NCBI GenBank assembly: GCA_947487205.1
Contig: CANKVU010000015.1
Location: 1 to 64,000, forward strand
Reading direction: 5' to 3'
Source: an uncultured Paracoccaceae bacterium
GTDB taxonomy: Bacteria; Pseudomonadota; Alphaproteobacteria; Rhodobacterales; Rhodobacteraceae
Length of the DNA: 64,000 nt
Shown one piece after another: positions 17,700-62,550 of this stretch (position 1 is its first letter; the number at the start of each line of letters is the position of its first letter). Under the pieces are notes generated by a model. It was given only the letters and a program-made list of their open reading frames with translations, was not told the DNA's origin and made no database searches. The position numbers and the translations under genes are program-made.

Positions 17700-17817
17700 C
17701 TTCCCCTCCGCCCCGCCGGACGGGCAAGGGTCGCGATGGAACGGGTCTTGGCCATGGTTGCATCATCCGGCAATGTCCGGTCTCGGGTACCTGTGCCCGA
17801 TCGGGCCGCCCCATTCA

Positions 17818-38400: not shown

Positions 38401-39251
38401 TCCTGCCCGCCGGATCCCCCGCCCCCTCCGGGGAGGAAATCATCGCAGGCACGGACGGGAGCGGTGCCGCGGCGACCGCCTCCTTCGAGGTGGAGGTCAC
38501 GGAGGCGGGCATCCTGACCGGATCCATTGCCGGTTTGCCGGAGGCCACGGAATACGACCTCCACATCGTTCAGCGCGACGAGGCCCTGAACATTTCTGCG
38601 CCACGGAGCGTGGCCACCCATACCGACACCTCCGAGATCCTGGCCCGCCGGCTTGCCGGTACGACCACGGCGCCCCGCCTCAACATTCCCAACGGCCTGG
38701 CGGCAAACGGCAAGGGAGAGATCACCGTCCTGGTCCGCATGGCCATCGGCGATGCGACCGCGGTGAGCACGGTGCATCGCTTCATCGAGGCCCATGGTCG
38801 CGAATTCGCGTTCGAACTCGACCTTCGAGGCAACAATTCCTACCGGCGCGCCCAATGGTCCGCCGAACAGGGCGGATCCAACGCCATATTCCTTGCAAGC
38901 TACGCCCCCGATCATTGTTTCGGCAAGGTTCCGGCCACCTTCGTCATGTCGATCACGCTCGATGACGGGAGCGGGAACGCCATCGCGCGGATCTGGAAGA
39001 ACGGGGTCCTGCTCGGGGAGAAGGTCAAGGCGGCGGCGAGCAACACGACCTGGTCGCAACGGGACATCTACATGAACTTCATGTCCTCGGTGAATATCGC
39101 CGTGAACGATTTCGCCGTGTGGCGGGCCTTCACTCCGGATGGCAGCCTGCCCGACGATGCCAGCCTGGTGGCGCCGCGCCTGACCGGCGGCGCGGATGTC
39201 TTCAACGCGCCACCGGCCCCTTACGTGAAATCGGGCGCCGACTTCGTGTGA
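35481..39251 (+). CDS. large putative surface/secreted protein: tandem cadherin-like (Big_9-type) repeats, beta-helix-like region, C-terminal LamG/concanavalin-like region
   Basis: 1256-aa ORF; two near-identical 95-aa repeats with 'DVLANDTDLDGDDLRVV'; 'FEDLDFRGLHVQVEGTNITFRQCLF...VLFEDCTLDGGG' beta-helix-like coils; no signal peptide seen. Confidence 0.75.
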   Translation: MPKSFATQKFSGLGASKASDGLELITFVEGVKASKDTPISEGDALTFDLKGSVPGRAIWGEVVTIEVDGRDGPGLTTDQLRAGVALPAPAFDVSLRGRLGHGRNTVHGVSCVPERGRKPAAPFAKGALPDLTLSEGSGVTTVDAAADFVGDDLVFALPVAPRGVTLEAGPGLVAIDTQATGPLSGVTIVVRATNATGSADSAFSLTVETAANHAPIATGDSATVAAGATILIDVLANDTDLDGDDLRVVDATTDIGTVSLGSAPNHLLTFDAGGLSAGDVATIVYTVSDGTDTAIGEATVTVVAAANRPPVATGDNAIVSVDGTVLVDVLANDLDLDGDSLKVVAASANIGRVTVGPAPDYLLSFDAAGLSAGDVATIAYTVSDGTDTAAGEATVTVEASKDALYRDILSLSDPANAGRTSTKPLTVVDAANPPAGSWWRGDINELIVDGTDVVFEDLDFRGLHVQVEGTNITFRQCLFGYADGEASGPGKYYVSPGVGASNVLFEDCTLDGGGDLSHRAACVVFDGIAPDGAKDVTFRRFRCVNVASDYIKPGGVRTLFDRVYMGLARNVPDKTTYYNPALAYAAGAHVLYDVGQSYRLYKAVEDVPPGEEPSGSTTATAYWKNDDKHLDGFQVASFKDMTIRDTLIEMFSKDADGNLIAIGVTNALRFAPNTNRDRTYDNLLISGMVIRAPYGGFYPISFSTNIRGWRKDITYSTSVQKYCRVGCAVFQSRIDDNLGNDPTLDPAAWAPVRDYAMPGPLRVENLWLSAGRNGGQALFNSGSSMPISSAIMTDPSGDPLPDHARPNLEIVESRPTPGFGSGRLCTNEIAHERYDPAQEFVITPTAYKTVLWTGKRISALPLYVGGIGVGAIGEDGALYTVDGEGVTLSDNVDGTFSLTLYDHAGNAMEGSLQIPTKTATAISRPASVPTGGPAWGSVDKDAPALSDLSTDQTANRIGWTITTDEDNGTLFGVLLPAGSPAPSGEEIIAGTDGSGAAATASFEVEVTEAGILTGSIAGLPEATEYDLHIVQRDEALNISAPRSVATHTDTSEILARRLAGTTTAPRLNIPNGLAANGKGEITVLVRMAIGDATAVSTVHRFIEAHGREFAFELDLRGNNSYRRAQWSAEQGGSNAIFLASYAPDHCFGKVPATFVMSITLDDGSGNAIARIWKNGVLLGEKVKAAASNTTWSQRDIYMNFMSSVNIAVNDFAVWRAFTPDGSLPDDASLVAPRLTGGADVFNAPPAPYVKSGADFV
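36108..36677 (+). repeat. two tandem 285-bp units (95-aa cadherin-like repeats)
   Basis: Unit 1 AANHAPIATGDSATV..., unit 2 AANRPPVATGDNAIV... start exactly 285 bp apart (36108 and 36393). Confidence 0.9.
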
Positions 39252-41016: not shown

Positions 41017-41991
41017 TCATTCGCGCAGGCGCTCTTCCAGCCATGACCTCAGATCATCCCGGAAGTCGGAATTCAGGGCGGCGCCTGACAGGCGGATGCT
41101 GCCGTCCCGCCCTTCCTCGTAGTCGAGCCCCGGCCCGACCCTGACCCGCTGCGGATCTGGAGCGGCGCGGCGGGGTTCGGACGCGGATTTCGAAGGGGAC
41201 AAGGCCGCCGAGAGAAGGGCCTGTTCGGCCTCCATCCCCGCCGGCGCTGCCGCATCCAGGCGCTTGGCCAGGGCGGCTCCCAGGGTGGTGTCGGCGTCCA
41301 GCGCCTGGGCGAGCCGCAGGCCCAGCCGCTCGCCGATCGCCGCGGGGTGCCGAAGATGCCCGTCGAGCGCCGAGACCAGGATCGCGAAGCTGCCGATCTT
41401 GGATCGCTTCGAGCGCGAGGCAGCGTGGAACAGGCTTCGCAGAGCCGCACCCAGGTCGGGATAGACGCCTTGTTCCACCGCCTTCACCGCGATCCGGGCG
41501 CGCTCGTAATGGCTGAGCCCGACGCGGATCTCGTTTTCCTCGACCATGGCGAGATAAGCGTCCTCGGCCTCCCGCGGGGTCCGCAGCAGGGCCAGGACGG
41601 TGTCGCGGCCCATCCGGCGCAGCGCCTCGATCCGCCGCCAGCCCGAGATCAGCCCGTAGCGATCGCCCCCCAGATCTGCGACCTCGATCGGGACCTGCTG
41701 GCCCCTGGCCGCGAGCGAGGCCACGAGGGCCGCCATTTCCTCCTCGTCGACGCCAAGCCGGTCGCGGACGAGATAGGCCGCATCGATGGCGGCGAGCGGC
41801 AGCTCGATCACCATGCGGCCGGTTTCGCGCGCCTCCGTCAGGGCCTGGGCCAGTTCGGCGGCCGCCGCGTTCCGGGCCGCGTCGCCGGCGATTCCGGCGA
41901 TCGGGGCAGGGGCCGCGCGCAGGGGCGCGGCCTCGTCGCCCGAGGACAGGAAGTCGGGCCGGGCGGAGGACAGGCGCTTGCGTCGGGCCAT
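41017..41991 (-). CDS. parB: plasmid partitioning protein ParB
   Basis: 'GQQVPIEVADLGGDRYGLISGWRRIEALRRMG' ParB/Srx box, 'VEENEIRVGLSHYERARIAVKAVEQG'; downstream of parA. Confidence 0.9.
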   Translation of the reverse strand: MARRKRLSSARPDFLSSGDEAAPLRAAPAPIAGIAGDAARNAAAAELAQALTEARETGRMVIELPLAAIDAAYLVRDRLGVDEEEMAALVASLAARGQQVPIEVADLGGDRYGLISGWRRIEALRRMGRDTVLALLRTPREAEDAYLAMVEENEIRVGLSHYERARIAVKAVEQGVYPDLGAALRSLFHAASRSKRSKIGSFAILVSALDGHLRHPAAIGERLGLRLAQALDADTTLGAALAKRLDAAAPAGMEAEQALLSAALSPSKSASEPRRAAPDPQRVRVGPGLDYEEGRDGSIRLSGAALNSDFRDDLRSWLEERLRE

Positions 41992-42010
41992 CTCAGATCT
42001 CCCTCGGGGA

Positions 42011-42028
42011 TGTTTCGCGCGCGAAACA
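42011..42028. repeat. 18-bp palindrome between parA and parB (parS-like)
   Basis: TGTTTCGCGCGCGAAACA, same core as 40989-41004 and 31500-31515. Confidence 0.85.
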
Positions 42029-42030
42029 GG

Positions 42031-43395
42031 TCATTCCGTGGCCTTCTGGTCGCGCCGCCAGGCGCCGACGATCAGGCTCTTCACCGCCGCATAGGTGGCA
42101 TCGAAGGTTTCGCGCCCGCGGGCATAGGTTTCGCGATTGAAGTCGCGGTAATCGGCCTCGTAGATGCCCTGGACCTGCTCGCCGGCCTGGCCGATGAGCG
42201 CGGTCGTGCCCTGCCTGTGAGGAGAGAGGGTCGGGCCCAGATAGGCCTGCATGAGCGCGGCGAGCTCGGCCTGCTGGCCGCCGTCGTAGCGGGTGATGAC
42301 CGCCCTGACTGCGTCCCATTCGAACGAGATGCCGGGCCGCCCCAGGGCGCGTGCAGCCACGTTCTCGCCCTCTTCGATCGACCGGAAGGTGGTCGCCAGC
42401 ATGTCGAAGAACCGGCCGGTGGAATCGAATTCCAGGAACGAGGCGCCGAGCGGCACCAGAAGGATGTCTGCGGCCGCCAACCCGTTGATCGTCAGGTATC
42501 CCAGGGCAGGGGGGGTATCGAGCAGCACGATGTCGTAATCGTCGAGCACACCGTCCTCTGCCAGCCGATCGCCGAGCGCGTCCCAGAGCTTCCACCCGCG
42601 CCCCTGCATCCGCCAGACCGGGACCTGGAACTCGGCCCAGTAGAGGTTCAGCTGCGCCCCGATCAGGTCCACGTTGGGCCAATGGGTGGCCTGGACGATA
42701 TCGCGCGCGGAAATCTCCATCGCCTCCCCGAGCGTCTCGTCCAGCGGCTGGGGCGCCTCGCCACGATCGACCGCACGCTGGTTCTGGGACCGGAGATATT
42801 CGCCGTAATGCCGGGCCAGAAGCGGAAAGACCGTCTGCCATTCGTCCGCGACCTTGCCGCCGAAGATCGAGGTCATCGACCCCTGGCTGTCGAGGTCGAC
42901 GACCAGGACCTTGTAGCCGTCCAGCGCCGCCGACATCGCCAGGTGGGCGCAGGTCGAGGTCTTGCCCACGCCGCCCTTGAAGTTCGCCACCGCCACGATC
43001 TTGGCCGGCAACCCCTCGGGGCGGAAGGGGAGGTAGTTCTTGGCCTTGGACCCTTCCCGCCCGAAGAAGGCGCGCAGCCGCAACACCTCGTCGAGTGAGA
43101 ACCACTTGGCGCCCCCCTCCGTCTCGGACCGGCCTTGGGGCAGGTCGGGGTTCTGTTTCAGCACCCGGCGGAAATGGCCCTGGGCCACGGGGATCAGGTA
43201 ACGGCAGATTTCCCATGTGGAGAACAGCCGCAATTGCCGGCCTCCGTCCTCGCCCATCCCGCGCGAGGCCAGGTCGTCCCGGCCCCGCGCACAGGCCGCC
43301 GCCACCGACGAAAAGCTGTCTGTGGAGGCTGGCGCCCCCAGAAGGGAAAGGGCCTGGTCGGGATCGATCGCCAGGTAGGGGGGGATGTCCGTCAC
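42031..43395 (-). CDS. parA: plasmid partitioning ATPase ParA
   Basis: 'KIVAVANFKGGVGKTSTCAHLAMSAALDGYKVLVVDLDSQGSMTSIFG' deviant Walker A; N-terminal DNA-binding-like region; GTG start. Confidence 0.94.
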   Translation of the reverse strand: MTDIPPYLAIDPDQALSLLGAPASTDSFSSVAAACARGRDDLASRGMGEDGGRQLRLFSTWEICRYLIPVAQGHFRRVLKQNPDLPQGRSETEGGAKWFSLDEVLRLRAFFGREGSKAKNYLPFRPEGLPAKIVAVANFKGGVGKTSTCAHLAMSAALDGYKVLVVDLDSQGSMTSIFGGKVADEWQTVFPLLARHYGEYLRSQNQRAVDRGEAPQPLDETLGEAMEISARDIVQATHWPNVDLIGAQLNLYWAEFQVPVWRMQGRGWKLWDALGDRLAEDGVLDDYDIVLLDTPPALGYLTINGLAAADILLVPLGASFLEFDSTGRFFDMLATTFRSIEEGENVAARALGRPGISFEWDAVRAVITRYDGGQQAELAALMQAYLGPTLSPHRQGTTALIGQAGEQVQGIYEADYRDFNRETYARGRETFDATYAAVKSLIVGAWRRDQKATE

Positions 43396-43548
43396 CGCTT
43401 GATCCTGCTCATGTTCGCCTTTTTCTCAAGTGTACGTCGAAACGGCAAACATGGAAGTATAAAGCGAACAAGACCTGATTTTCTTCGCAGGATTGCGGCT
43501 TCCAGGGGGGATTTTCCGGCCCTCGCAGGGATCGCGGCAGAAAAGCGC

Positions 43549-43608
43549 CGTTATTTTAAGTTATTTATACGTTACGGGGTTTTTCCCTGCCAAAAAAGTA
43601 CGAGTTGT
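43549..43608. other. AT-rich stretch, candidate DNA unwinding element of the plasmid origin
   Basis: CGTTATTTTAAGTTATTTATACGTTACGGGGTTTTTCCCTGCCAAAAAAGTACGAGTTGT in an otherwise GC-rich window, next to iterons and repA. Confidence 0.6.
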
Positions 43609-43640
43609 CAGCTCCTTCCGAGCGATCCGAGGAGGGCGGG

Positions 43641-43699
43641 CGATTCCGATCCCACGTTGCTGCGACTCCGATCCCACAATGGCCCGATTCCGATCCGCC
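43641..43699 (+). repeat. three iterons with 22-bp period upstream of repA
   Basis: CGATTCCGATCCCAC (43641), CGACTCCGATCCCAC (43663), CGATTCCGATCCGCC (43685). Confidence 0.85.
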
Positions 43700-43770
43700 G
43701 AAGCGCGATGGACCCGCGCCCTGTCTTGCCACTAGGGTGTCACTGAACCCCCGAAAGAGGGACGGGCAGC

Positions 43771-44775
43771 ATGACGAGGGCGGTGGGGCAGGGATTGGCC
43801 TCTGAACGGCAGCCGGCGGCGGACTTCTTCGTCTGCGAGGTCTTCGACGCCTCGCCGAAGGACGATTTGGGGTCGATGGAACATCCGATCTTCTCGCTCT
43901 CGACCCGGCCGGATCGCCGCGTCCTGAGCTATGCCCATAACGGGGTGACGATCGACATCACCCCTTCGGTCCGGGGGCGGGCGACGATCCACGACAAGGA
44001 TATCCTCATCTACTGCGTCAGCCAGCTGATGGCGGCGGTGAATGCCGGCAGGGAAGTGTCCCGGACCCTGCGGCTGACGGCGCACGACCTGCTGGTGGCC
44101 ACCAACCGCGACACCAGCGGCGATGCCTATCACCGCCTCCGGGAGGCGTTCGAGCGGCTGGCGGGGACCCGCATCACCACCAACCTGACGACCGGCGGAG
44201 TGGAGACGACGCAAGGGTTCGGCCTGATCGAAGCCTGGGAGATCCGCCGCCGCAGCCGGGGCGGCCGGATGATGTCGGTGTCGGTGACCCTGTCGGACTG
44301 GCTCTACCGGGCGGTACTGTCGAAATCGGTCCTCACCCTCAGCCGCGATTACTTCCGGCTGCGCAAGCCGCTGGAGCGGCGCATCTACGAGCTCGCGCGC
44401 AAGCATTGCGGTCGCCAGCCCGCCTGGACCGTTTCGGTCGAGGTCCTGCACCGCAAGTCCGGCTCCACCGCCCCGCGCCGGGTGTTCCGCGCCGCCCTGC
44501 GCCGGATGATCACCGAGGGCCGGCTGCCCGATTACCTCCTCTCCGAGGAGCCCGGCGACCTGATCCGGGTCACCCGGGCCGGCCGCGTGGACCCGGCCGC
44601 GCCGCGCTTCGACGCGGAGGTCCTGGCGGCGGCCCGGGCGCTGGCGCCCGGATTCGATGTCCATGCGCTCGAGGCCGAGTGGCGATCCTGGTGGATCGAA
44701 ACCGGACAGCCGAAGCTTAACGCTCCCGATCGCGCCTTCCTTGGCTGGGTGAAGGTCCGTGCTTCCCGCGGATGA
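43771..44775 (+). CDS. repA: plasmid replication initiator RepA (RPA family)
   Basis: 'DLGSMEHPIFSLSTRPDRRVLSYAHNGVTIDITPSVRGRATIHDKDILIYCVSQLM', 'RLRKPLERRIYELARKHCG'; downstream of iterons, divergent from parAB. Confidence 0.9.
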   Translation: MTRAVGQGLASERQPAADFFVCEVFDASPKDDLGSMEHPIFSLSTRPDRRVLSYAHNGVTIDITPSVRGRATIHDKDILIYCVSQLMAAVNAGREVSRTLRLTAHDLLVATNRDTSGDAYHRLREAFERLAGTRITTNLTTGGVETTQGFGLIEAWEIRRRSRGGRMMSVSVTLSDWLYRAVLSKSVLTLSRDYFRLRKPLERRIYELARKHCGRQPAWTVSVEVLHRKSGSTAPRRVFRAALRRMITEGRLPDYLLSEEPGDLIRVTRAGRVDPAAPRFDAEVLAAARALAPGFDVHALEAEWRSWWIETGQPKLNAPDRAFLGWVKVRASRG

Positions 44776-44779
44776 GGAG

Positions 44780-45277
44780 TCAGGTCAGACCGGCCTCGGC
44801 CAGGCGGGACTCGGTCTCGTCGGCGGTCAGGAACCGCCCGTAGGGCCCGACCTCGATATCCGATCGCACGACCCGCGCGGGGTTCCCGGCGACGATCGAG
44901 CGGGGCGGGACGGACTTGGTGACGACCGAACCGGCCCCCACCACGCAATTGTCCCCGATCTCGACGCCGGGCAGGATCAGGCTGCGTCCGCCGATGAAGC
45001 AGTTCGCCCCGATGCGGGTATGGAGATAGAGCCCCCGTGTCATGTCGTGGGTCAGGAGGCGCGACTCGAAGGCGAGGTAGGTGTGGGCGCCGACATGCAC
45101 GCCCGGGGGAAAGGTCCGGTCGAGCTGCGCCGAGAGCGACATCTGCACCGTGGGGTGCAAGTCCATCCCCCAGATGCGGGTGTAATAGCGGCGCCGGAGA
45201 TCGACGAGGAGGTTGCGTAGCCCCGAAAGCCGGTTCAGGCCGCGCTTGCGGGCCTTCTTGTGGGGGGGGGCGGTCAT
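44780..45277 (-). CDS. hexapeptide-repeat acetyltransferase (LbetaH)
   Basis: 'RIGANCFIGGRSLILPGVEIGDNCVVGAGSVVTKSVPPRSIVAGNPARVVR'. Confidence 0.85.
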   Translation of the reverse strand: MTAPPHKKARKRGLNRLSGLRNLLVDLRRRYYTRIWGMDLHPTVQMSLSAQLDRTFPPGVHVGAHTYLAFESRLLTHDMTRGLYLHTRIGANCFIGGRSLILPGVEIGDNCVVGAGSVVTKSVPPRSIVAGNPARVVRSDIEVGPYGRFLTADETESRLAEAGLT

Positions 45278-46353
45278 GCGCTGGCTCCCTTGCGGTGTCG
45301 GGCCAGAATTTCGCGCGCCGACGGATCGAGACGGCCGGTCACCGTGGCGGAAGGGGGGCGGCCGAAGGCCCCGGCCAGGAGCGCGCGCGCCTCGGCCGGA
45401 TAACCCTTGGCGAGATATTGTCCCGCCTTGGCGAGGGAATAGGCCTGCCCCGTGGCGAGGCTGCCCGCAAAGAAACGGCGCAGGAACATCAATCGGGCGC
45501 GGTGCTTGAAATAGAGCGAGAAGGGCGACGGGGGCCGGGAATGGGTCGCCGAACCGATTGCGGTGCCGGCCCGGTGATAGACCACCGCCTCGGGGCAATA
45601 GGCCAGCGGCAGGTCTCCGCGGCGCAGCGCCCAGTCGACCTCCTCGTAGTAGAGGAAGTAATCCTCGCGCAGCGGTCCCACCTCTTCGTAGAACCGCCGG
45701 GAGGCGACCATGCTTGCCCCCGTGATGAAGTCCATTCCGGCCGGATCGGCGGGAGGCGTCTCTGCGTGGGGGGCAAAGAGGTTCACGTTGCCGGTGATCC
45801 CCGTCCGGCGGTCGATCGTGCCGCCGTCGATCTGGATCATTTCCGGCCGATCGTAGTAGAGGACCCGCCCCCCCATGAGGGAGAAGCCCTCCATGGGGGC
45901 GGGATGGGTGGCGAAGGCGCGGGCCGTATCCGGCGGCACGACGCTGTCGGGATTGAGGATCCAGAACCGGTCGATCCCCTCGATCCGGGCCAGTTCCGCC
46001 AGGCCGGCATTCACCCCGCCGGCAAAACCGGTGTTCCGCCCGGTCTCCACCAGTTGCAGGGCATGGCCGGAGGCCGCGGCCATTTCCTCGGGGGTGTCCG
46101 CCAGGAAGGGCGCGACGGCGGGGGCGATCGGCACCGGCCCGCCGGCAGGCGGCGCCTCCCGGCCGTTGGCGGCCCAGTCGCGGATCGTTCCCGGCGTGCC
46201 GTCCCCCGATCCGTTATCGACCACCACGATCCGGAGCCGGACCCCCCGGGAGCCCAGGAGGCTCTCGAGGCAGTCGAGGATGATCTCGCGCGCGTCGAAG
46301 GTGACGACGACGACGCCGAGCGTCGCGGACGGGGAGGGCGTATCGCGTTCCAT
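45274..46353 (-). CDS. glycosyltransferase family 2 (rhamnosyltransferase-like)
   Basis: 'LGVVVVTFDAREIILDCLESLLGS...IVVVDNGSGDGT...NTGFAGGVNAGLAE'. Confidence 0.88.
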   Translation of the reverse strand: MERDTPSPSATLGVVVVTFDAREIILDCLESLLGSRGVRLRIVVVDNGSGDGTPGTIRDWAANGREAPPAGGPVPIAPAVAPFLADTPEEMAAASGHALQLVETGRNTGFAGGVNAGLAELARIEGIDRFWILNPDSVVPPDTARAFATHPAPMEGFSLMGGRVLYYDRPEMIQIDGGTIDRRTGITGNVNLFAPHAETPPADPAGMDFITGASMVASRRFYEEVGPLREDYFLYYEEVDWALRRGDLPLAYCPEAVVYHRAGTAIGSATHSRPPSPFSLYFKHRARLMFLRRFFAGSLATGQAYSLAKAGQYLAKGYPAEARALLAGAFGRPPSATVTGRLDPSAREILARHRKGASA

Positions 46354-46397
46354 GTCCGCGTCTTAGGCGCCTTCGCCCCCGAGGGCCAGAGACCTCC

Positions 46398-49037
46398 CTA
46401 GGTCATGAGCACCGGGTCGAAGGCGGCCAGGCCGGGGATGCCGCCGACATCCGTGGTATCGAAATCCGAGGCGTCCACCGTGATCTCGACATCCGACAGG
46501 AGGCCGTCGAAGTTCCCGCCCCAGGGATTGCCGAGATAGAGGCCATGGCTACTGCCGTCCGAAATGGGCCCCATATCGGTCCGACCGGCCGCCTCGCCGT
46601 CGATCGCCACCTGCAGGATCCCGTCGAGAAGGTCGATCTCCACCTCGTGGGCCGCCCCGTCATTCACCGCCGGTCCGGAGGTTTCGAACCGGAGCCGGCC
46701 GTCCTCGGTCGCGGCCCGGATCAGGATATCTCCGTCGCCCCTCACCGTTCCGATGAAGGCCGAGCCCAGGCGAAAGATCGTTCCGCTGTCCCCGGGCTCG
46801 CCGGCCAGGGTGAAGTCGAGCGAGAATTCGTCCGTCCCCACCATCTCGACCACGTGGTCGCGCGGGATCTCCGCTTTTGCCCCCGATGAGCCGAGACGTA
46901 CGCCGTCCGTGCCGAGCCCCGAAAGGTCGATCTCCTCGTCCCCGTCGACGATCAGCCCGGTCCCGGATTCGAACCGCAGGAGTTCCGGGCCGGTCACCTC
47001 GAAATCGTGCGACACGTTCCGGCTTGCCCCGTCGGGGAGCGTCACCTTCAACGTCACGCTTTCCTGCCCGCCGCCCTCGAACACGGCGGCGAAGACCCGG
47101 TCGGTCACGGTGCTGCCGTTCGAGAAACTCCATTCGAAACGCGCCTCGTCGCCGACGGGATTTCCGTCGAGGAGCGTGTGGCTCGCGTCGAAGATCCGGG
47201 CGCTCGCGTCCTCGTCGACGGTTGCGATGTGAAATCCGGGTCGCAGGCCCTCGCTCGGGACGAGGGTCTCGGAGGCGCCGGCATTGGCCAGGTCGGCCAG
47301 TCCCCCGGGGCGGGCGACGAACAGGTGTGCCCCGTCATCGGCCTGCAGCGAGGAGGACAGGAACACGTCTCCGTAATAGCCGGGCGCGTTCGGATCCTGA
47401 TCCTGGACAAGGACATTGCCGGTCACCGTCCCGGTATCCGCACTGATCCTGGAGACGAGGTTGTCGGCGATCGTGACATCGCGGGATCTCGCGCTGACGT
47501 TGATCCACGGAATCTCCACCGGCGCGTCGGTGCCGTCGGCATCGCGGCCATCGGCATGCAGGACGCTGTTTCCCCGGATGGTCAGGCCGTCCGTCTCCCC
47601 CACGGTGATGCCATGGCGGTGCCCGTTGACGATCACGTTGTCCTCGATCGTGAGGTCGCGATAGAACATCTCTTTCCCGGCCAGGCCCCGATCGACCATG
47701 TCGTTGCGCATGAAGATCGACTGGGTCCAGTCGCCCGCGCCGATATCGAGCGTGTTGCCGCGGATGACGACATCGGTCGAGGGCCGGTCCGCGCCGTTGG
47801 TCCAGAACTGGATCATGTCCGCGTGGTCGCCGGAGCTTTCGGCCGTGTCGAAATCGTGGATGTGGTTGTTTTCGATCGATGCGTTCTGAACTTTGGCGAA
47901 GTTGAGCCCGTCCATGCGCATGGAATGGATGTCATTGTCCCGGACGACCAGATCGTCGATGCCATTCAGCACCGCCCCCTTCCAGAACTCGAAGAATTCC
48001 GTCCCTTCTATGGTCACGCCCGTGGCATTGCGGACCGACAGGCCCGTGCCCCATCCATGCCCATCCGCGACCGAGGAGACGCCGCGGGCCAGGTCTCCGT
48101 CGAAGGTCGCGTTCCGGATCGCGATGTTCTCGCCGCCATTGACCACGAAGGGCCGGATGAACCGCGCGTCGCCCGAGCCGTAATCGTAATCGAAGACCAC
48201 GCCGTCGAACCCGATATTTTCGGCCCCGCGAATGTCGAGGCCCGAAAAGATCGCCGGGTTAGAGGCATCGGCGGAGGCGATCGTCACCTCGGAGGCATAG
48301 GTGTAATCGAAGCCGGATTGCACGGTCAGCCGAAAGTCGCCGTAATCGCCACCGTCGAGAAGAATTTTCTCGCCACCCTCCGCTCTAGAAAGGGCATCGT
48401 AAAGGTCGGACTGCGTCGAAACCCGGACGACGTCCCCGGCCGGCAGGTCGGGAGGATTGTCCACGGTTCCACCGTCATCGGGCGCGTCATCGTCGTCGGG
48501 AGGGACGGCCTGGTCGGGGCCGTCATCCGCCCCGGTCCCGCCATCCGGGGTCATGTCCGTGGCGGAAATGGTCAGGGTCCCGATCTTCGAGGCGAAATTG
48601 TCTTCGCCTCGGGGATCGCCCAGCTGGAAATCGGTGTCGGTCCCGCCCTTTGCCACGAGCGGGGGCATTTCGACCGTGCCCGTCCTCTCTCCATCCACGA
48701 TGACGGACAATTGGCCGTCGCTGTAATCGATCTCTACGGCATGGGGGGCTGCATCGGCCATGTTTGCACCCGTGGTCCGCAGGTCGACCATGCCCGTATC
48801 CGTCGCCGCCTGCAGCACTATTTCTCCCGCGTCGTCCACCGAGGCCACGAGGCTGGAGCCCAGGCGAAAGAGTTCGCCGCTTTCGCCGGGAGACCGCGCC
48901 GTGATGTCGAAATTTACGGAAAATGTTTCCGCTCCGAGAAGGCCGTCGACGGCATCGTGCGAGATCTGTTCCGAAACCCCCTCATGCCCCAGGACAATCG
49001 GATACACGGAGGCATAGGTGATAATATCGGATGTCAT
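46398..49037 (-). CDS. right-handed beta-helix protein flanked by two LamG-like domains
   Basis: Repeated 'FSVNFDITARSPGESGELFRLGSSLVASV' and 'FSLDFTLAGEPGDSGTIFRLGSAFIGTV' around a beta-helix core; no signal peptide. Confidence 0.75.
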   Translation of the reverse strand: MTSDIITYASVYPIVLGHEGVSEQISHDAVDGLLGAETFSVNFDITARSPGESGELFRLGSSLVASVDDAGEIVLQAATDTGMVDLRTTGANMADAAPHAVEIDYSDGQLSVIVDGERTGTVEMPPLVAKGGTDTDFQLGDPRGEDNFASKIGTLTISATDMTPDGGTGADDGPDQAVPPDDDDAPDDGGTVDNPPDLPAGDVVRVSTQSDLYDALSRAEGGEKILLDGGDYGDFRLTVQSGFDYTYASEVTIASADASNPAIFSGLDIRGAENIGFDGVVFDYDYGSGDARFIRPFVVNGGENIAIRNATFDGDLARGVSSVADGHGWGTGLSVRNATGVTIEGTEFFEFWKGAVLNGIDDLVVRDNDIHSMRMDGLNFAKVQNASIENNHIHDFDTAESSGDHADMIQFWTNGADRPSTDVVIRGNTLDIGAGDWTQSIFMRNDMVDRGLAGKEMFYRDLTIEDNVIVNGHRHGITVGETDGLTIRGNSVLHADGRDADGTDAPVEIPWINVSARSRDVTIADNLVSRISADTGTVTGNVLVQDQDPNAPGYYGDVFLSSSLQADDGAHLFVARPGGLADLANAGASETLVPSEGLRPGFHIATVDEDASARIFDASHTLLDGNPVGDEARFEWSFSNGSTVTDRVFAAVFEGGGQESVTLKVTLPDGASRNVSHDFEVTGPELLRFESGTGLIVDGDEEIDLSGLGTDGVRLGSSGAKAEIPRDHVVEMVGTDEFSLDFTLAGEPGDSGTIFRLGSAFIGTVRGDGDILIRAATEDGRLRFETSGPAVNDGAAHEVEIDLLDGILQVAIDGEAAGRTDMGPISDGSSHGLYLGNPWGGNFDGLLSDVEITVDASDFDTTDVGGIPGLAAFDPVLMT

Positions 49038-49462
49038 TGGGAATTTTCCTTATTGCGTTCGGCAAAGCCGGATCGACCGGGAAGGCGGGATCGGGTGGAT
49101 ATGGATGCGGTGATACGATCCAGTCCGTGGCCCCAGATTCGAGAGCCATGGGGAGGTGCGGACCGCAGGAATGGTGTCAGCACGGCGTCACGGGGCGGCA
49201 GGACATGCCGCCGGATCGGCGAAACAGGAGGTATGGCGATATGGCCGGCGCCAGGGATCGCTGCGGCTCCGTCATGGGCTCTGTATCCATCGGTTCATGC
49301 CTCGGCGCGGATTGACGGGAGGCGATGCTCGAAAGACTACGAACCGGGGAAGGCCTTGTCGTTCAAGGCGAAGTTTCTTTGTTGGCGGATTCCAGCACGT
49401 CGCTGAGCATGCCCCCGCCTAGTCACACGCATCGGGCGATCCTGCCCCGGAATTGCGGGGTG

Positions 49463-50923
49463 CTAGTTCGTGGTACGGTTGCTGGAAAGGGGAAGGGCGC
49501 CCCTCGCATGGGTCAGAGGTCCATCCGCTCTGCGCCCCCCGGGTCGGGCGAACCGCGTGAAGACCGGGCCTCGCTGATGGTCCGTCTCGGCCTCCTGGAC
49601 GCCCTGCGGCGCATCCGTGACTTCGGCGGTGATGAACCAGACCCCGGCGCCGAACATGAAGGTCACGAAGGAATAGATGTTTGTCCAGACATGGACGGTG
49701 CAGAGCGTGAAGGTCAGGCCCAGAAAGGTGAAGACCCAGGCGCGCCGGAACTGGTTGAGAAGCACACTGTTCGAAAAGTCGCGGCGCATAACGCGAGCGA
49801 TGACGAACAAATACCCCAGTGCCAGTGTGAAAAATCCGGGCAAGCCGTACCGCACGCCCACGACGAGCCAAAAATTGTCCATGCTTCCGGAATGCATGAA
49901 GTGCGGTCGAATCCAGTTCCCCAACCCAATTCCGAAAATGGGATTTCCCTGTATTCCTTTTTCGGTGCTTCCGATGATGTTCGCAAGGCCCCAGTCGAAG
50001 ATGATGCCGCGCCAATATGCATTATGCGCGGAGAAGGTGGCATAGCTCATGAACACGCGGAGCGGCGTGCGGTTCGAAAGCAGGTCTATGGCCACGTAAG
50101 CGAAGGCGGTGAACCCGACCAATATCCACCAACGACTTGGGACATTGCGAAAGGCAGTGAACCATCCGATCAGGATGATCTGCATGACCATTGCTAGCAA
50201 TGCGCCGCTGGACAAGCCGAGAAGTCCGGTGAACAATATCAGGAAACTGGCAATATAGCGTTTTGCATCGCTCATCATGCCTTCCAGGGCAACGTAAGTC
50301 AGAGAGAAGGCAACCGAGCAAAAAAGGGCGAAATGGATCGGATGGGCAAAGGTCGCCTGAACCCGTTCAAGGCCCATTCGCCCCTCGATGGTCACGATCC
50401 CTACACTGGTCAGCCCCGGAATCTTGCGCAGGTATTCCACGATGATCGGCCTGCCCGTCTGGGCTTCGTACAGAGCGAATGGGATCGTCGAGAAAACCAG
50501 CACGATCAGAAGGCGGCACAGGGCGGCGAAACTTTCCGCGTCGCGAATATAGGCGCGGCCGATCATGTATCCGCCCAGAAACTCGACCCCGACCGAGCCT
50601 ACTTGCTGGAGCGCCTGATCGGGGTTGTTCACCCACAGCGCCACGCCGATCCATGCCAGATGCATGAAGAACAGGATGTCGGTCAGAATGATGCGGCCGT
50701 ATTTCCCGCGCAAGAGGTTAATGGTCAATGGAATGACCATGACGAGGGTGACCACGCGCAGGGTGGTCATGAATATGGGTCCCGCCTGAAAGGCGATCGG
50801 AATCAAAACGCACAGCAGATAGATGAACGCCGGCAGGGGCACACTTGTCCGGGCAAGCGACGGCATGCCGGTCGCCGGTCTGGCGGAGGCTCTCCGCCCG
50901 GATATCGCCTCGGCCGCGGTCAC
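49463..50923 (-). CDS. O-antigen ligase/polymerase-like membrane protein (Wzy candidate)
   Basis: Polytopic ORF with 'GNPIFGIGLGNWIRPHFMHSGSMDNFWLVVGVRYGLPGF' typical of Wzy/WaaL periplasmic loop. Confidence 0.75.
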   Translation of the reverse strand: MTAAEAISGRRASARPATGMPSLARTSVPLPAFIYLLCVLIPIAFQAGPIFMTTLRVVTLVMVIPLTINLLRGKYGRIILTDILFFMHLAWIGVALWVNNPDQALQQVGSVGVEFLGGYMIGRAYIRDAESFAALCRLLIVLVFSTIPFALYEAQTGRPIIVEYLRKIPGLTSVGIVTIEGRMGLERVQATFAHPIHFALFCSVAFSLTYVALEGMMSDAKRYIASFLILFTGLLGLSSGALLAMVMQIILIGWFTAFRNVPSRWWILVGFTAFAYVAIDLLSNRTPLRVFMSYATFSAHNAYWRGIIFDWGLANIIGSTEKGIQGNPIFGIGLGNWIRPHFMHSGSMDNFWLVVGVRYGLPGFFTLALGYLFVIARVMRRDFSNSVLLNQFRRAWVFTFLGLTFTLCTVHVWTNIYSFVTFMFGAGVWFITAEVTDAPQGVQEAETDHQRGPVFTRFARPGGRRADGPLTHARGALPLSSNRTTN

Positions 50924-51005
50924 AGGGCCTCGGAGGAGGAAATCGTGAGGGTCTCATCCATGATGGAGGCGTGCTTAGCTTTGCGGTGTGGCGAGAAAAA
51001 GGTGG

Positions 51006-52259
51006 TCATTCCGTCGGGGACAGGCGCGGGGCCCCGTAACCGGAGCCATCGAGCGGTCCGTCCGGCTTGGGATAGAAGGACGACAGGTTGCCCGGGTCTC
51101 CTTCGAGGGCGTTGGCGAAGACATGCCCGTAATATCCCGGTCGTAGCTGATGGCGGTCCTGAATCAGGAAGTTGTCGTGTGCTTCCCAGTCCGATTGTTG
51201 TTTGAACCCTGCAATGCGGGAGACGACATTGCCGACGATGCGGACATCATGCGATTTCGAGGATACAAAGATCCGGGGGTCGTAGAGGGGGGGATTGTCC
51301 CGCTCCCCTTCTGACCGCGCATTCCGGATGACCGAATTGTTTTCGATCTCCACGCCGTCCGATTCTCCGAGGGAGATTCCGTGCAGATGGGCGTTGATGA
51401 CGACATTGTCCTTTATCGAAATGTCGCGGTAGAACATTTCCCTCCCGGCCTTGCCCCGGTCCACGAGATCGTTTCGCATGAAGATCGACTGGGTGAAAAG
51501 ACCGTCGCCGGAGTTCAGGACGTTGTCCCGGATGATGACATTTCGGGTCGGCTCGCTGGTCCGGTTGGTCCAGAACTGGATCATGTCGGCATGATCCCGC
51601 GAATCCGGAGAGCGGACGAAATCGTGGATATGGTTCTTCTCGATCCGCACGTCCTGGACCTGGGCGAAGTTCATCCCGTCCATGCGGAGGGAGTGAACAT
51701 CGTTGTTCCTGACCACGACATCCTGACTTTTCGACACGACGAGCCCGCGGAAAAAGGTGTGGATCTCGTTGTTCTCGACGGTCATTCCCTGAACGTTGCT
51801 CACCCCGAGCCCGAAGGCGAAGCCGAACCCGTCGGAGTTTTCCGAAACGCCCTGCGCCACGTCGCCGTCAAAAAGCGCGTTGCGGATCGCCACATCCTGG
51901 CTGTCGGTCACCTGGAAGGGGCGCAGGTGGATCTTGTCGTCCGCGGAGAAGACGTAGTCGAAGACCAGCCCGTCGAAGGTCACGTGGGCCGATTGGTGCA
52001 GACGCATGTCCCCCAGGCGGGCGGGGTCCGCGGGATCGGCCGAAGTGATCGTCACGGCGCGGTTCTCCGCGCCCTCCACGCCGCGAAGGAACACGCCCTC
52101 GTAGCGTCCGGGGGCGAGCCGGATCGTCTCACCCGGCTCCGCATCCGCCGCGGCGGTCTTCAGTTCCTCCGCGGTCCTCACGGTCTGGTCGGCCCAGGCC
52201 GGTCCCGCCAGGAGGAAGAGCGCTCCGAGCAGCGTAGCAGCAAGACGGCGGTGAGACAT
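51006..52259 (-). CDS. secreted right-handed parallel beta-helix protein
   Basis: Signal peptide MSHRRLAATLLGALFLLAGPAWA; core closely similar to the 46398-49037 product. Confidence 0.82.
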   Translation of the reverse strand: MSHRRLAATLLGALFLLAGPAWADQTVRTAEELKTAAADAEPGETIRLAPGRYEGVFLRGVEGAENRAVTITSADPADPARLGDMRLHQSAHVTFDGLVFDYVFSADDKIHLRPFQVTDSQDVAIRNALFDGDVAQGVSENSDGFGFAFGLGVSNVQGMTVENNEIHTFFRGLVVSKSQDVVVRNNDVHSLRMDGMNFAQVQDVRIEKNHIHDFVRSPDSRDHADMIQFWTNRTSEPTRNVIIRDNVLNSGDGLFTQSIFMRNDLVDRGKAGREMFYRDISIKDNVVINAHLHGISLGESDGVEIENNSVIRNARSEGERDNPPLYDPRIFVSSKSHDVRIVGNVVSRIAGFKQQSDWEAHDNFLIQDRHQLRPGYYGHVFANALEGDPGNLSSFYPKPDGPLDGSGYGAPRLSPTE

Positions 52260-52330
52260 GACCAGCTTCCTTTCCGGGACGGTTTCGGCCGCCCTAGCGC
52301 ATCTGCGGTGGCGGGTCAGCAGGGCGCTCA

Positions 52331-52891
52331 TCATAATCTCGCGTGCACGAGGCGTCGTCCGCCCCCGAAGCCCAGGACGATGCCGGCCACGTTCAGGATC
52401 AGGTCATCCACGTCGAACTGCCGGTAGGGACAGTCGTAAAGGCCGAAGATCCCTGTCAGTTGCGAGATCTCGACCAGCCCCGTCAACCCGATCGCGAAGA
52501 GCAGGACCGTCCGGGTCCGCCGGACGAGCGGAACCAGGGCCGCACCGATCGCCGCGCACAATACAAGGTTCATCACGGCCGAGGCCACGCTGAGATCGAG
52601 AAGCCAGGTTCCGGCGGAGGCCTCGTTTTGCCACAGGCCGATCGCGGCCCGCGCGAAATGGAAGGGAACGAAGAGAGGCGGCTCGCCCCCGTCCGAGCAA
52701 TCGAGCCTGGTGGGGTCGGGGAAGGGGTGATGCGTCAGCGCCAGGAAGAAGGCGGTCAGGAAGACGGCCGGACCGGCCGCCGCCATCCACCTTCCGCGAA
52801 GAACACGGAAACCGGTATGGACGAAGAGGCTTGCCGCGAGAGCATAGAGCGCGGCGAGGCCCGCAAAATTCAGTATCTGATGGAAACTCAT
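52331..52891 (-). CDS. VanZ-like membrane protein
   Basis: 'DLSVASAVMNLVLCAAIGAALVPLV...VEISQLTGIFGLYDCPYRQFDVDDLILNVAGIVLGF'. Confidence 0.75.
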   Translation of the reverse strand: MSFHQILNFAGLAALYALAASLFVHTGFRVLRGRWMAAAGPAVFLTAFFLALTHHPFPDPTRLDCSDGGEPPLFVPFHFARAAIGLWQNEASAGTWLLDLSVASAVMNLVLCAAIGAALVPLVRRTRTVLLFAIGLTGLVEISQLTGIFGLYDCPYRQFDVDDLILNVAGIVLGFGGGRRLVHARL

Positions 52892-52912
52892 CTGGATGCC
52901 TCGGACGCCATG

Positions 52913-54310
52913 TTAGTCCCGGCCGCGAAGGTAGCGGAGAAGGTCTCGCATCGTGAACGCCGACACAGCCAGCAGGCCCAGAAGTATCAGCCATGCATGG
53001 AGGGGCGGGAAGCCGACATCCGCGGCGGGCAGGACCAATACGCTGCAAAAAAGGACCGCAATGGCCAGATGGGACGGGATGAGCGCGCGAAGCTCTACGC
53101 CCACCGTCCGTTTCATGAGAAACAGGGCCAGGCCGTAGCCGGCCAATTCCCCGAAGGCGGAAATCTTGATGATCGTCAAAAGGTTGCCGGAATTGGCCGC
53201 TACATACCAGACGAATGGAATTGCCAGCATTCTGATCCCGTTGGCGAACATGGCGTTTGATGTGTGTCCGGTGGAAAGTGCCACGAGCGACGGGCCCGTT
53301 TTGGCGACCCGGATTGCCTGCATCACCCCGAACCATTTGAGATATTCAAGGAGCGCCAGGTATTTTTCGCCGAGGAGGATATAAACTACCGGCCCGCCGA
53401 ACAGGTGGATCCCCACGACCAGCCCGGCTGCGGCGAGGAATGGAACTTCCAAGGCAACCCTGGACATGTGCCCGAAGCGTTCAGCCGTGGAATCGGTCGC
53501 CGACCAGAGCCGCGAGAGCTGGGGCAGGAAGAAGTTCTGCACGCTCTTGGCCAGCACGAGCGTGGGCGTCAGGGTCAGCGTCATTCCCATGGAGAAGATG
53601 GCGAGCGTCTCCATGCCGAGCTCGCGTCCGACAAGTACGCGATCGCCGTTGAATACCGCGAAAAGCAGGGCATTGTTGACCAGAAGCGGCCAGCCGAAAC
53701 GCAGGGATCCGGTGATGACGCGACGGTCGAACCGCGCTCTCCACGGGCGTTGGGCCGTCAGGTGCGAGGTCGCCACGCCGAGTGCGGCGCCCACGAGGAT
53801 GCATCCGAGCATCACCCGGTAATCCCCGAACCAGATCACGAGCGGCCAGACCAGCAGGAGGGACACCACGGCCGGAGCGAGCCGCGTGAGGAGCATCGGC
53901 CCGAAGACCATGTCCCGGTTCAGCCGGTGGATGTCGAAATGCTGGAAGGCGTTCAGGACCGGAACCAGGGCAACGGCCCGGTAGGCCCAGGCGACTTCGG
54001 GAACGTTCATGAAATCGGCCACGGGGCCGGCCAGGAGGAACAATGTCAGCCCCGACATGAGCCCTCGCATCAGTTGGAACCCTTGCAGCGCGGCCTGGAA
54101 GTCTGGATCGTCGCCCTCCTTGGACTGGACGATCTGCTGCTGCAATCCGAGCGCCGAGGCCATCTCCAGAAGCGAGACCACGAGGGCGAAGGTCGCGGCG
54201 ATCCCGTAATCCTCGACCGAGATCATCCGGGCAACCGCGAGGTTCCGCACGAGCAGGACCAGTGAAGCGGCCGCATTGCCCGACAGGATCAGGAATGCCG
54301 TGCGGAACAT
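52913..54310 (-). CDS. polysaccharide flippase (Wzx-like, MOP superfamily)
   Basis: 'LILSGNAAASLVLLVRNLAVARMISVEDYGIAATFALVVSLLEMASALGLQQQIVQ'. Confidence 0.88.
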   Translation of the reverse strand: MFRTAFLILSGNAAASLVLLVRNLAVARMISVEDYGIAATFALVVSLLEMASALGLQQQIVQSKEGDDPDFQAALQGFQLMRGLMSGLTLFLLAGPVADFMNVPEVAWAYRAVALVPVLNAFQHFDIHRLNRDMVFGPMLLTRLAPAVVSLLLVWPLVIWFGDYRVMLGCILVGAALGVATSHLTAQRPWRARFDRRVITGSLRFGWPLLVNNALLFAVFNGDRVLVGRELGMETLAIFSMGMTLTLTPTLVLAKSVQNFFLPQLSRLWSATDSTAERFGHMSRVALEVPFLAAAGLVVGIHLFGGPVVYILLGEKYLALLEYLKWFGVMQAIRVAKTGPSLVALSTGHTSNAMFANGIRMLAIPFVWYVAANSGNLLTIIKISAFGELAGYGLALFLMKRTVGVELRALIPSHLAIAVLFCSVLVLPAADVGFPPLHAWLILLGLLAVSAFTMRDLLRYLRGRD

Positions 54311-54433
54311 GAATGACCTTCCGGATGGGGTTGCGGGGCCGCTTCTTCCCCGGCATGGCGTCGTGGTCAAGGTGACGCGCAATCGCTAAGAGACCCTTGA
54401 ACCGCGAGAACCAGAAGAACGATCGACCCCGAC

Positions 54434-55678
54434 ATGCCTTCACCCTTTTCGGCCAGCCCCGCCCTCAGGCGCGTGGCGCGTGGTGACCTCTGCGCCGGAT
54501 GCGGCGGCTGCGCGGCCATCGCACCCGGCAAGGTGCGGATGCAGCGCGTCGAGCCGGGCTACCTGCGGCCCCGTCAGGAAGCGCAGCTCTCCCCCGAGGA
54601 GGAAAGCGGCATCGCCGCGATCTGCCCGGCTCTCGGCCAGACGGTCGAGGCGGCCGGACGGACGGATTCGGTGCTCTGGGGGCCGTACGTCTCGATCGCC
54701 ACCGGCTGGGCCACGGATCCCGACACCCGGTTCGCCGCGTCCTCGGGCGGGGCCCTGTCGGCGATCCTGACCTATCTGGTCGAGAGCGGCCGGGTGGACG
54801 CCGTGGTGCAGACTACGGCGGACCCCGATCTGCCCATCGGCAATGCCGCGACCCTCTCGACCGGGGCGGAGGAGATCCGCGCCGCCGCCGGATCGCGCTA
54901 TGCCCCCTCGGCCCCGCTGGCCGACCTGCCCGCGCGTCTTGCCGAGCATCGCGAGAGCGGACGCCGCTTCGCCTTCGTGGGCAAGCCCTGCGACGCGGTG
55001 GCGCTCCGGGCCTGGTCCCGGCGGGACCCCGAGATCGACCGGGCCTTCCCGGTGGTGGTGTCGTTCTTCTGCGCGGGGGTGCCCTCCCATGCCGGCGGGC
55101 GGGCCGTCCTGGAGGCGCTCGGCACGGATCTCGAGGCGACGCGCGCCTTCCGCTATCGCGGCCGCGGCTGGCCGGGCCGGGCCACCGCCACCGGCCGGGA
55201 CGGGGCGGAACGGTCGATGACCTATCACGACAGTTGGGGACGGATCCTGTCGCGCCACGTCCAGCACCGCTGCAAGATCTGTCCCGACGGGACCGGCGTC
55301 GCCGCCGACATCGTCTGTGCCGATGCCTGGGAGAGCGACGAACGGGGCTATCCGGTCTTCAAGGAGGCGGATGGCGTCAGCCTGATCATGGGGCGCACCG
55401 CCAAGGGGGCCGACCTGATCTCCGCGGCCCGGGAGGCCGGCGCGATCGAGAGGCGGGATTTCGACATTTCCGACTTGGCGGCGATCCAGCCCGGGCAGCG
55501 GGAACGGCGCCGCGCGCTCCTGGCCCGCCTGCTCGGGCAGCGGGCGGCCGGCCGGCCGGTCCCGCGCTATCGAGGCCTGCGGCTCGCCGCGGCGGCCCGC
55601 CAGAACCCCCCGGCCCGCAACCTGAAGAACTTCCTTGGCACTCTCAGGCGAAGCCTCCGCGCCTCAACGTCGCGGTAA
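54434..55678 (+). CDS. coenzyme F420 hydrogenase/dehydrogenase beta-subunit-like protein
   Basis: N-terminal 'CAGCGGCAAI', C-terminal 'HRCKICPDGTGVAADIVCADAWE'; next to pyruvyl transferase. Confidence 0.85.
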   Translation: MPSPFSASPALRRVARGDLCAGCGGCAAIAPGKVRMQRVEPGYLRPRQEAQLSPEEESGIAAICPALGQTVEAAGRTDSVLWGPYVSIATGWATDPDTRFAASSGGALSAILTYLVESGRVDAVVQTTADPDLPIGNAATLSTGAEEIRAAAGSRYAPSAPLADLPARLAEHRESGRRFAFVGKPCDAVALRAWSRRDPEIDRAFPVVVSFFCAGVPSHAGGRAVLEALGTDLEATRAFRYRGRGWPGRATATGRDGAERSMTYHDSWGRILSRHVQHRCKICPDGTGVAADIVCADAWESDERGYPVFKEADGVSLIMGRTAKGADLISAAREAGAIERRDFDISDLAAIQPGQRERRRALLARLLGQRAAGRPVPRYRGLRLAAAARQNPPARNLKNFLGTLRRSLRASTSR

Positions 55679-55703
55679 CGGAACGAAAGTAGTAAAGACG
55701 ACC

Positions 55704-56867
55704 ATGAGCAATCCGCTTCGCATCTGCCTGATCCAGCATTCCACCCGTTCGGACAACATGGGGGTGGGGGCGCTGACCGCTGCCGAAGTGGACATCCTGC
55801 GGGACATCGCGCGCGATCTCGGCCGCGAGTTGAAGATCACCATCATGGACTGGAAGGGGCCGCGCCGCCCCTACGTGACCGGTCCCGACATCGAGGTGGT
55901 CGATATCGATCGCAGATCGCTTTTGTCGCCGCGGGGCTTCTTCGCCGTGGCGCGCCGGTCCGACGCGGTGATCGATATCGGGGCGGGGGACAGTTTCGCG
56001 GATATTTACGGTTCGGCCCGGCTCACGCGGATGTTCTGGATGAAAGCGCTCGTCCATCTCTCGGGCACGCCGCTCGTCCTCGCGCCCCAGACCATCGGCC
56101 CCTTCACCAAGCCCGGGTCGAAGCGCCTGGCCCGGCTGACCATGCATCGCTCGGCCCTCGTCGCCACGCGCGACCGGCTTTCGACCGAGCACGCCCGCGA
56201 ACTGGGCTACGAGGACGTGATCGAGGCCTCCGACGTGGCGCTGCGCCTGTCCTACGACACGCCGGCGCCGCGCGATCCGGCCGCGCCGCCGAAGGTCGGG
56301 ATCAACGTCTCGGGCCTGCTGATGAACCGCGGTTACACGGGAAAGAATGAATTCGGCATCCGCGCCGATTATCCCACCCTGATCCGCGACCTGATTCGGT
56401 TCTTCCGCTCCGAGGGCTGCGAGATCCACCTCGTCGCCCATGTCTATCCCGATGCCGACAGCCGCACCCATCGCGAGGACGACACCGCGGCGAACGCCGC
56501 CCTCGTGGAGGAATTCCCGAACCTGATCGCGGCCCCCCGCTTCGCCTCGCCGTCGGAGGCGAAGAGCTATATCGCCGGGCTCGACTTCTTCATGGGCGCG
56601 CGGATGCATGCCTGCATCGCGGCCTTCTCGGCGGGCGTGCCGGTCGTTCCGATGGCCTACAGCCGCAAGTTCGAGGGGCTCTTCGGAACGATCGGCTACG
56701 ACCGGACGGTCGATTGCACCTCCGAGACGGCAGAGGTGATCGAGGAGAAGATCCGGGCCGCCTACGCGGAGCGCGACATTCTCCGCGCGGAGGTCGAATC
56801 GGCCTGCCGGGCCGGGGTGGAGAAACTGGCCGTGTACGAAAAGCGCCTGCGCGGCCTCCTGGCCTGA
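55704..56867 (+). CDS. polysaccharide pyruvyl transferase family protein
   Basis: 'DNMGVGALTAAEVDILRDI', 'LVLAPQTIGPF', 'FFMGARMHACIAAFSAGVPVVPMAYSRKFEGLF'. Confidence 0.9.
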   Translation: MSNPLRICLIQHSTRSDNMGVGALTAAEVDILRDIARDLGRELKITIMDWKGPRRPYVTGPDIEVVDIDRRSLLSPRGFFAVARRSDAVIDIGAGDSFADIYGSARLTRMFWMKALVHLSGTPLVLAPQTIGPFTKPGSKRLARLTMHRSALVATRDRLSTEHARELGYEDVIEASDVALRLSYDTPAPRDPAAPPKVGINVSGLLMNRGYTGKNEFGIRADYPTLIRDLIRFFRSEGCEIHLVAHVYPDADSRTHREDDTAANAALVEEFPNLIAAPRFASPSEAKSYIAGLDFFMGARMHACIAAFSAGVPVVPMAYSRKFEGLFGTIGYDRTVDCTSETAEVIEEKIRAAYAERDILRAEVESACRAGVEKLAVYEKRLRGLLA

Positions 56868-62537: not shown

Positions 62538-62550
62538 GTCGCTTTCCTGT

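Follow-up and report, generated by a model that had tools for sequence, protein, structure and literature searches.

Why should a polysaccharide gene cluster carry two related beta-helix proteins, one with an export signal and one without, on either side of a Wzy-type membrane protein? The question arises in the first 64,000 nucleotides of contig CANKVU010000015.1 (assembly GCA_947487205.1) of an uncultured Paracoccaceae bacterium, a stretch that we refer to as a whole as the window. The two proteins, here called B1 and B2, share a homologous right-handed beta-helix core, and their relatives are closely linked to one type of wzy gene. We favor, with some reserve, the reading that B1 and B2 form a compartment-specific, lyase-like pair that would act on the polymer of the adjacent cluster.

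Two beta-helix paralogues flank a Wzy-type gene

B2 occupies a minus-strand open reading frame (ORF) of 442 aa at 51006-52334. Its likely start is Met26 at 52259, which agrees with the coordinate given in a preliminary description of this DNA and gives a gene at 51006-52259; the product matches the Beta_helix model of Pfam (1.8e-14). Given this start, the N-terminus reads MSHRRLAATLLGALFLLAGPAWA followed by DQ, a textbook Sec signal peptide with its hydrophobic segment (52191-52259, minus strand). B1 (46398-49037, minus strand; 879 aa) is a larger protein, in which an N-terminal Laminin_G match (aa 61-142; 48612-48857) is followed by the beta-helix core homologous to B2 (aa 205-590; 47268-48425), a PKD-like domain (aa 626-682; 46992-47162; PKD_4 at 26.9 bits, just under the cut-off of 27) and a C-terminal Laminin_G_3 match (aa 752-852; 46482-46784). 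Both Laminin_G stretches and the Beta_helix match of B1 exceed the Pfam cut-offs. No hydrophobic segment was found at the N-terminus of B1, and the protein cannot gain a Sec signal from an earlier start, because the frame is open for only about 4 codons further upstream.

The beta-helix cores of B1 and B2 are 46% identical over 396 aa (BLASTP, E = 2e-107), with an alignment score of 846 as compared with a maximum of 66 among 200 shuffles. They share the identical runs DHADMIQFWTN, TQSIFMRND, EMFYRD and NHIHDF, and both proteins score above the gathering cut-off of Pfam Beta_helix (PF13229). Between them, 82 bp downstream of B2, lies the gene for a membrane protein of the Wzy/O-antigen-ligase type (49463-50923, minus strand). 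Its own match to Wzy_C is weak (18.3 bits against a cut-off of 31.7); 23 of 24 relatives match this model (best 4.9e-11), and its homologues are annotated as O-antigen ligase family. The preliminary description, which had reported two paralogues with near-identical blocks around a Wzy candidate, one with a Sec signal and the other signal-less with LamG caps, was thus accurate on each of these points.

Linkage to one wzy type

A scan of GTDB genomes yielded 37 loci, nearly all in Rhodobacterales, or 38 with the window counted. In 31 of the 38, a wzy gene of the same type has a family member immediately upstream in the same orientation, and nearly all of these upstream members are visibly Sec-exported. 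The gap between the two genes ranges from about -112 to +176 bp, with many start/stop overlaps. This wzy type falls within the fetched stretch in 36 of the 38 loci; of the two loci without it, L028 reaches a contig end, and L025 is a second locus that shares its contig with L020, where the pair is present. L003 shows B2 - wzy - B1 - GT2 (glycosyltransferase family 2) in exactly this order.

In a sample of 199 genomes from the bacterial family, almost every one representing a different genus, the beta-helix protein was detected in 30 and the wzy in 46, with both present in 29 (Fisher p = 7.7e-22, to be taken as indicative since the sampled genomes are not phylogenetically independent). The two genes are at most 13.3 kb apart in 25 of these 29 genomes. 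Co-occurrence with wzy, which had been raised for this pair before, therefore holds for 29 of the 30 genomes with the beta-helix protein. The earlier proposal that B1 and B2 serve the same polymer gains from this a conserved, tight association with one wzy type, while action on the polymer itself is something that we infer. In one genome with wzy and no detected family member (L074), a distant beta-helix protein is nevertheless encoded nearby.

The same pairing occurs on annotated plasmids of Roseobacter litoralis (pRLO149_63), Loktanella salsilacus and Pseudorhodobacter turbinis. In the genome paper of R. litoralis, the plasmid figures as one for surface polysaccharide (rfb), and no beta-helix protein is mentioned. 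The Sec-type beta-helix gene of P. turbinis appears in the plasmid annotation as a pair of consecutive coding sequences and is possibly a broken copy (L101:13914-15169).

Export routes and history of the two forms

Genes of type I secretion systems (T1SS) adjoin signal-less members in seven loci (L006, L010, L021, L023, L024, L025 and L030). Such genes are thus seen in 7 of the 19 loci that have a signal-less member and in none of the 18 that lack one (p = 0.005). The permeases of L006, L023, L024, L025 and L030 exceed the NCBIfam PrtD cut-off (5/5 tested), and the HlyD adaptors of L006 and L025 exceed their curated cut-off (2/2 tested). On the P. turbinis plasmid, genes for beta-helix, O-antigen ligase, GT2, T1SS permease and HlyD follow one another in this order, and three genes beyond HlyD lies the gene for a 1372-aa beta-helix/PKD/LamG protein. 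A further signal-less member (L031:9983-12835) carries nine RTX stretches (1.7e-39) in an AlgE-like layout of beta-helix plus RTX. RTX repeats are a hallmark of T1SS substrates.

B1 itself has the sequence features of such a substrate: it lacks a Sec signal, its C-terminus is acidic and poor in Lys and Arg (17% D/E and 0% K/R in the last 60 aa), and a low Cys content, also expected, is here a complete absence of Cys. Because its signal-less relatives adjoin PrtD/HlyD genes and one of them carries RTX repeats, B1 is most likely exported by a T1SS, as far as sequence can indicate. The pair would then use two export routes, Sec for B2 and probably type I secretion for B1, in line with the periplasmic and extracellular locations first suggested. 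In three other loci, a short signal-less paralogue adjoins an ATP-binding cassette (ABC) exporter (L033:345-3610, L034:325-3585 and L036:856-4127); these neighbors were rejected as T1SS components, the L033 representative scoring as MsbA/PglK/HepA-like.

A maximum-likelihood tree of 51 cores, in which the root is uncertain and the long branches of L039 are unreliable, requires only 2 switches between Sec and signal-less forms, as compared with 15.7 in shuffles. B1 clusters with the signal-less relatives and B2 with the Sec relatives. The two forms are thus separate old subfamilies, and the pair reflects an old division of labor rather than a recent event in this genome; recent duplication with loss of the signal was rejected on this tree. 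The preliminary description had B1 gaining LamG caps and losing its signal, an account that the two old subfamilies do not support. We also discarded LamG caps as a mark of the signal-less form, since Thioclava-type Sec forms bear PKD-LamG as well.

Fold and conserved residues

The AlphaFold2 (AF2) model of B2 consists of three-strand coils (pLDDT 96.5, pTM 0.94), and PF13229 is matched by 51/51 family members. In mature B2 numbering, His200, Asp202 and Gln205 are invariant in all 51, within the signature DHADMIQFW (residues 199-207; 51570-51596, minus strand). Nearly invariant are Gln234, Arg239 and Asn240 in the signature TQSIFMRND of the next coil (residues 233-241; 51468-51494, minus strand), His268/His270 in HLHG of the following coil (residues 268-271; 51378-51389, minus strand), and Asp171/Asp199. 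Judged by secondary structure and spacing, D171, D199/H200/D202/Q205/W207, Q234/R239/N240 and H268/H270 occupy matching positions on four successive coils. The resulting polar groove looks enzyme-like in the model and may be catalytic. We found no description of this beta-helix family in the literature searched, and none of the Pfam and NCBIfam models names it; the shared signature thus defines an unnamed family, as the preliminary description had anticipated.

A non-catalytic role, in which the two beta-helices would bind or chaperone the polysaccharide, guiding or anchoring it at Wzy and at the cell surface, seems quite unlikely to us. The PfbA adhesin and NosD-type helices also match the family, and the LamG and PKD caps suggest binding, but the strictest conservation extends beyond the helix scaffold to the polar His, Asp, Gln and Arg residues aligned on the four coils.

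The best Foldseek matches in the Protein Data Bank (PDB) were carbohydrate enzymes (PL31, PL6, GH136, RbmB, AlgG/AlgE6 and GH28), although these matches are moderate, with TM scores normalized by the target (TMt) of at most 0.59, and may reflect the beta-helix alone. The highest is to 6kfn (TMt 0.59), which we take to be a PL31 alginate lyase; it also gives an N-cap match (9e-7), but its chain is shorter and single-domain, about 300 residues. RbmB, the Vibrio cholerae VPS lyase (PDB 9ozl), is a beta-helix with a moderate fold match (TMt up to 0.56) but shows no sequence-profile match to the family at E<=1. For the PL6 alginate lyases and chondroitinase B (AlyGC), the N-terminal cap and the start of the beta-helix are homologous to the family, and sequence-profile similarity is confined to this region (4e-13; hhalign 96% over 100 columns). 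The alignment stops after column 112, and the KS...RHG motif, present in the fetched PL6 proteins L095 and L096, cannot be aligned to the family. Neither B1 nor B2 matches PF14592 (Chondroitinas_B), which 5 of 51 members match weakly (best 3.5e-4).

The same comparisons bear on whether B1 and B2 are instead glycoside hydrolases, beta-helix enzymes resembling GH28, GH110 or GH136 that would cleave with water by an Asp/Asp pair. The invariant Asp202 and nearly invariant Asp171/Asp199 could supply such a pair, GH110 sequence matches (2e-4) and GH136/GH28 fold matches exist, and a hydrolase would need no uronic acid. However, the GH matches are limited to the helix repeats, Pfam and NCBIfam name no hydrolase family with confidence, and the top sequence and fold matches are lyases, making this alternative an improbable one, though still live. 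The family is best read as comprising uncharacterized polymer-cleaving (lyase-like) or epimerizing enzymes, and a lyase-like depolymerase pair is the most likely form of this reading.

A putative lyase-like pair for one polymer

In the lyase-like reading, B2 would enter the periplasm via Sec and act on chains during or after their assembly by Wzy. There it would most likely cut them, presumably by beta-elimination, trimming their length or clearing misdirected chains. B1, lacking a Sec signal, would most likely be exported by a T1SS and act outside the cell on matrix already released, where its LamG domains would retain it. A matrix-dedicated beta-helix lyase is conceivable because RbmB offers a precedent, being a beta-helix-type lyase that cuts the matrix polysaccharide VPS of its own organism (PMC11637428). 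Precedents likewise exist for paired enzymes that serve one polymer, one of them secreted past the periplasm. In alginate epimerization, AlgG is periplasmic and AlgE secreted, and they have a DPHD motif in common (PMC4444821); in succinoglycan, ExoK and ExsH are two depolymerases, of which ExsH is exported via the PrsDE type I system (PMC1403797). The ExoK/ExsH case resembles ours in having two depolymerases for one exopolysaccharide, one leaving by a type I system, but ExoK is a beta-1,3-1,4-glucanase, ExsH is a succinoglycan depolymerase, and neither is reported as a beta-helix protein in that paper (PMC1403797). The novelty of our case lies in an unnamed family that joins these features with a specific Wzy clade.

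Several findings, in addition to the modest fold matches, weigh against the lyase-like pair. The PL6 Lys/Arg catalytic pair (KS...RHG) is not conserved in the family, the best Lys column reaching 22%, and PL6 membership was therefore rejected despite the N-cap homology. The AlgG/AlgE DPHD motif has a single isolated occurrence among the 51 members (L012). The family thus seems to match no known lyase or epimerase active site, and its invariant H-x-D..Q signature would stand in place of the PL6 and epimerase motifs. No nucleotide-sugar dehydrogenase was found near the pair in the window, the one UDPG dehydrogenase-type gene of the genome lying on another contig. Considered as a guide to lyase chemistry, uronic acid genes give a mixed picture across the relatives, UDPG dehydrogenase-type genes being nearby in 4 of the 37 loci. 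The beta-helix protein was not detected at 1e-10 in 17 of the 46 wzy-bearing genomes (L074-L088 among them). As for export, there are no T1SS genes beside B1 within the window, and the HlyD-like genes of the genome sit on other contigs, so a transporter for B1 would have to act in trans. The ABC exporter at 17401-19632, considered as the T1SS of B1, was rejected, because its scores group it with MsbA/PglK-like exporters and fall far short of the PrtD cut-off.

The missing DPHD motif also speaks to the view that B1 and B2 are polymer-level C5-epimerases like AlgG and AlgE, altering uronic acid configuration while leaving the chain uncut; B2 would do so during export and B1 once the polymer has been released. 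There are resemblances: the mannuronan C5-epimerases AlgG and AlgE1-7 are periplasmic and secreted beta-helix enzymes for one polymer (PMC4444821), AlgE6 (TM 0.52/0.53), AlgG and the epimerase/lyase 8ja4 are among the fold matches, and the signal-less L031 protein combines a beta-helix with RTX repeats that resemble the R-modules of AlgE. Yet DPHD is not conserved, AlgE4 aligns only weakly in sequence and over just its residues 249-348, and B1 and B2 are tied to Wzx/Wzy rather than to an alginate synthase, with mostly LamG/PKD in place of RTX. We rejected membership of AlgG/AlgE for lack of the motif, so that neither simple placement, in PL6 or with AlgG/AlgE, stands; epimerization as such is a live rival, but a slim one.

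A broader version of the proposal, which we put forward tentatively and consider doubtful as a whole, is that of a new lyase/epimerase family whose active site (H-x-D..Q / Q...RN / HxH) is its own and whose genes share an operon with one Wzy clade. An ancient duplication would have yielded periplasmic and T1SS-exported copies, giving the polymer two rounds of processing, one during assembly and one in the matrix.

Should the lyase-like reading hold, proteins annotated across Rhodobacterales under the generic name "right-handed parallel beta-helix repeat-containing protein", often on plasmids, could be named as an enzyme family, for which substrate and active-site residues are predicted along with the way in which each paralogue is exported. 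The periplasm-plus-outside design of AlgG/AlgE would then have a Wzy-dependent counterpart, and the matrix polysaccharide of a marine bacterium would have an enzyme usable as a tool.

The surrounding polysaccharide cluster

The window holds a Wzx/Wzy-type polysaccharide cluster. A GT2 gene (45274-46353, minus strand), 44 bp after B1, is a conserved neighbor of the module, and a hexapeptide-repeat acyltransferase (44780-45598, minus strand), whose true start is probably inside the ORF, ends the gene run. The same cluster includes a Wzx-type flippase (52913-54382, minus strand), a polysaccharide pyruvyl transferase (55635-56867, plus strand), a ParA/AAA-type ATPase (BY-kinase-like) with a GNVR/Wzz-type co-polymerase (61722-63957, minus strand), and further glycosyltransferases. 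A promoter and terminator scan over 44700-54500 gave nothing above shuffles.

Genes for ParB-like, ParA-like and RepA-type (RPA) replication initiator proteins lie within the cluster at 41017-44775. This RPA initiator and the ParA/ParB genes make it probable that the contig represents a plasmid or chromid, comparable to pRLO149_63 of R. litoralis. The G+C content is about 70-75% at 8001-31500 versus 59-62% at 48001-52000, around wzy, a drop that hints at a horizontal origin of the polymer-specific genes. A 1256-aa protein with bacterial Ig/cadherin-like domains, encoded at 35481-39251, is possibly another large adhesin, located at the surface or secreted, that belongs to the cluster.

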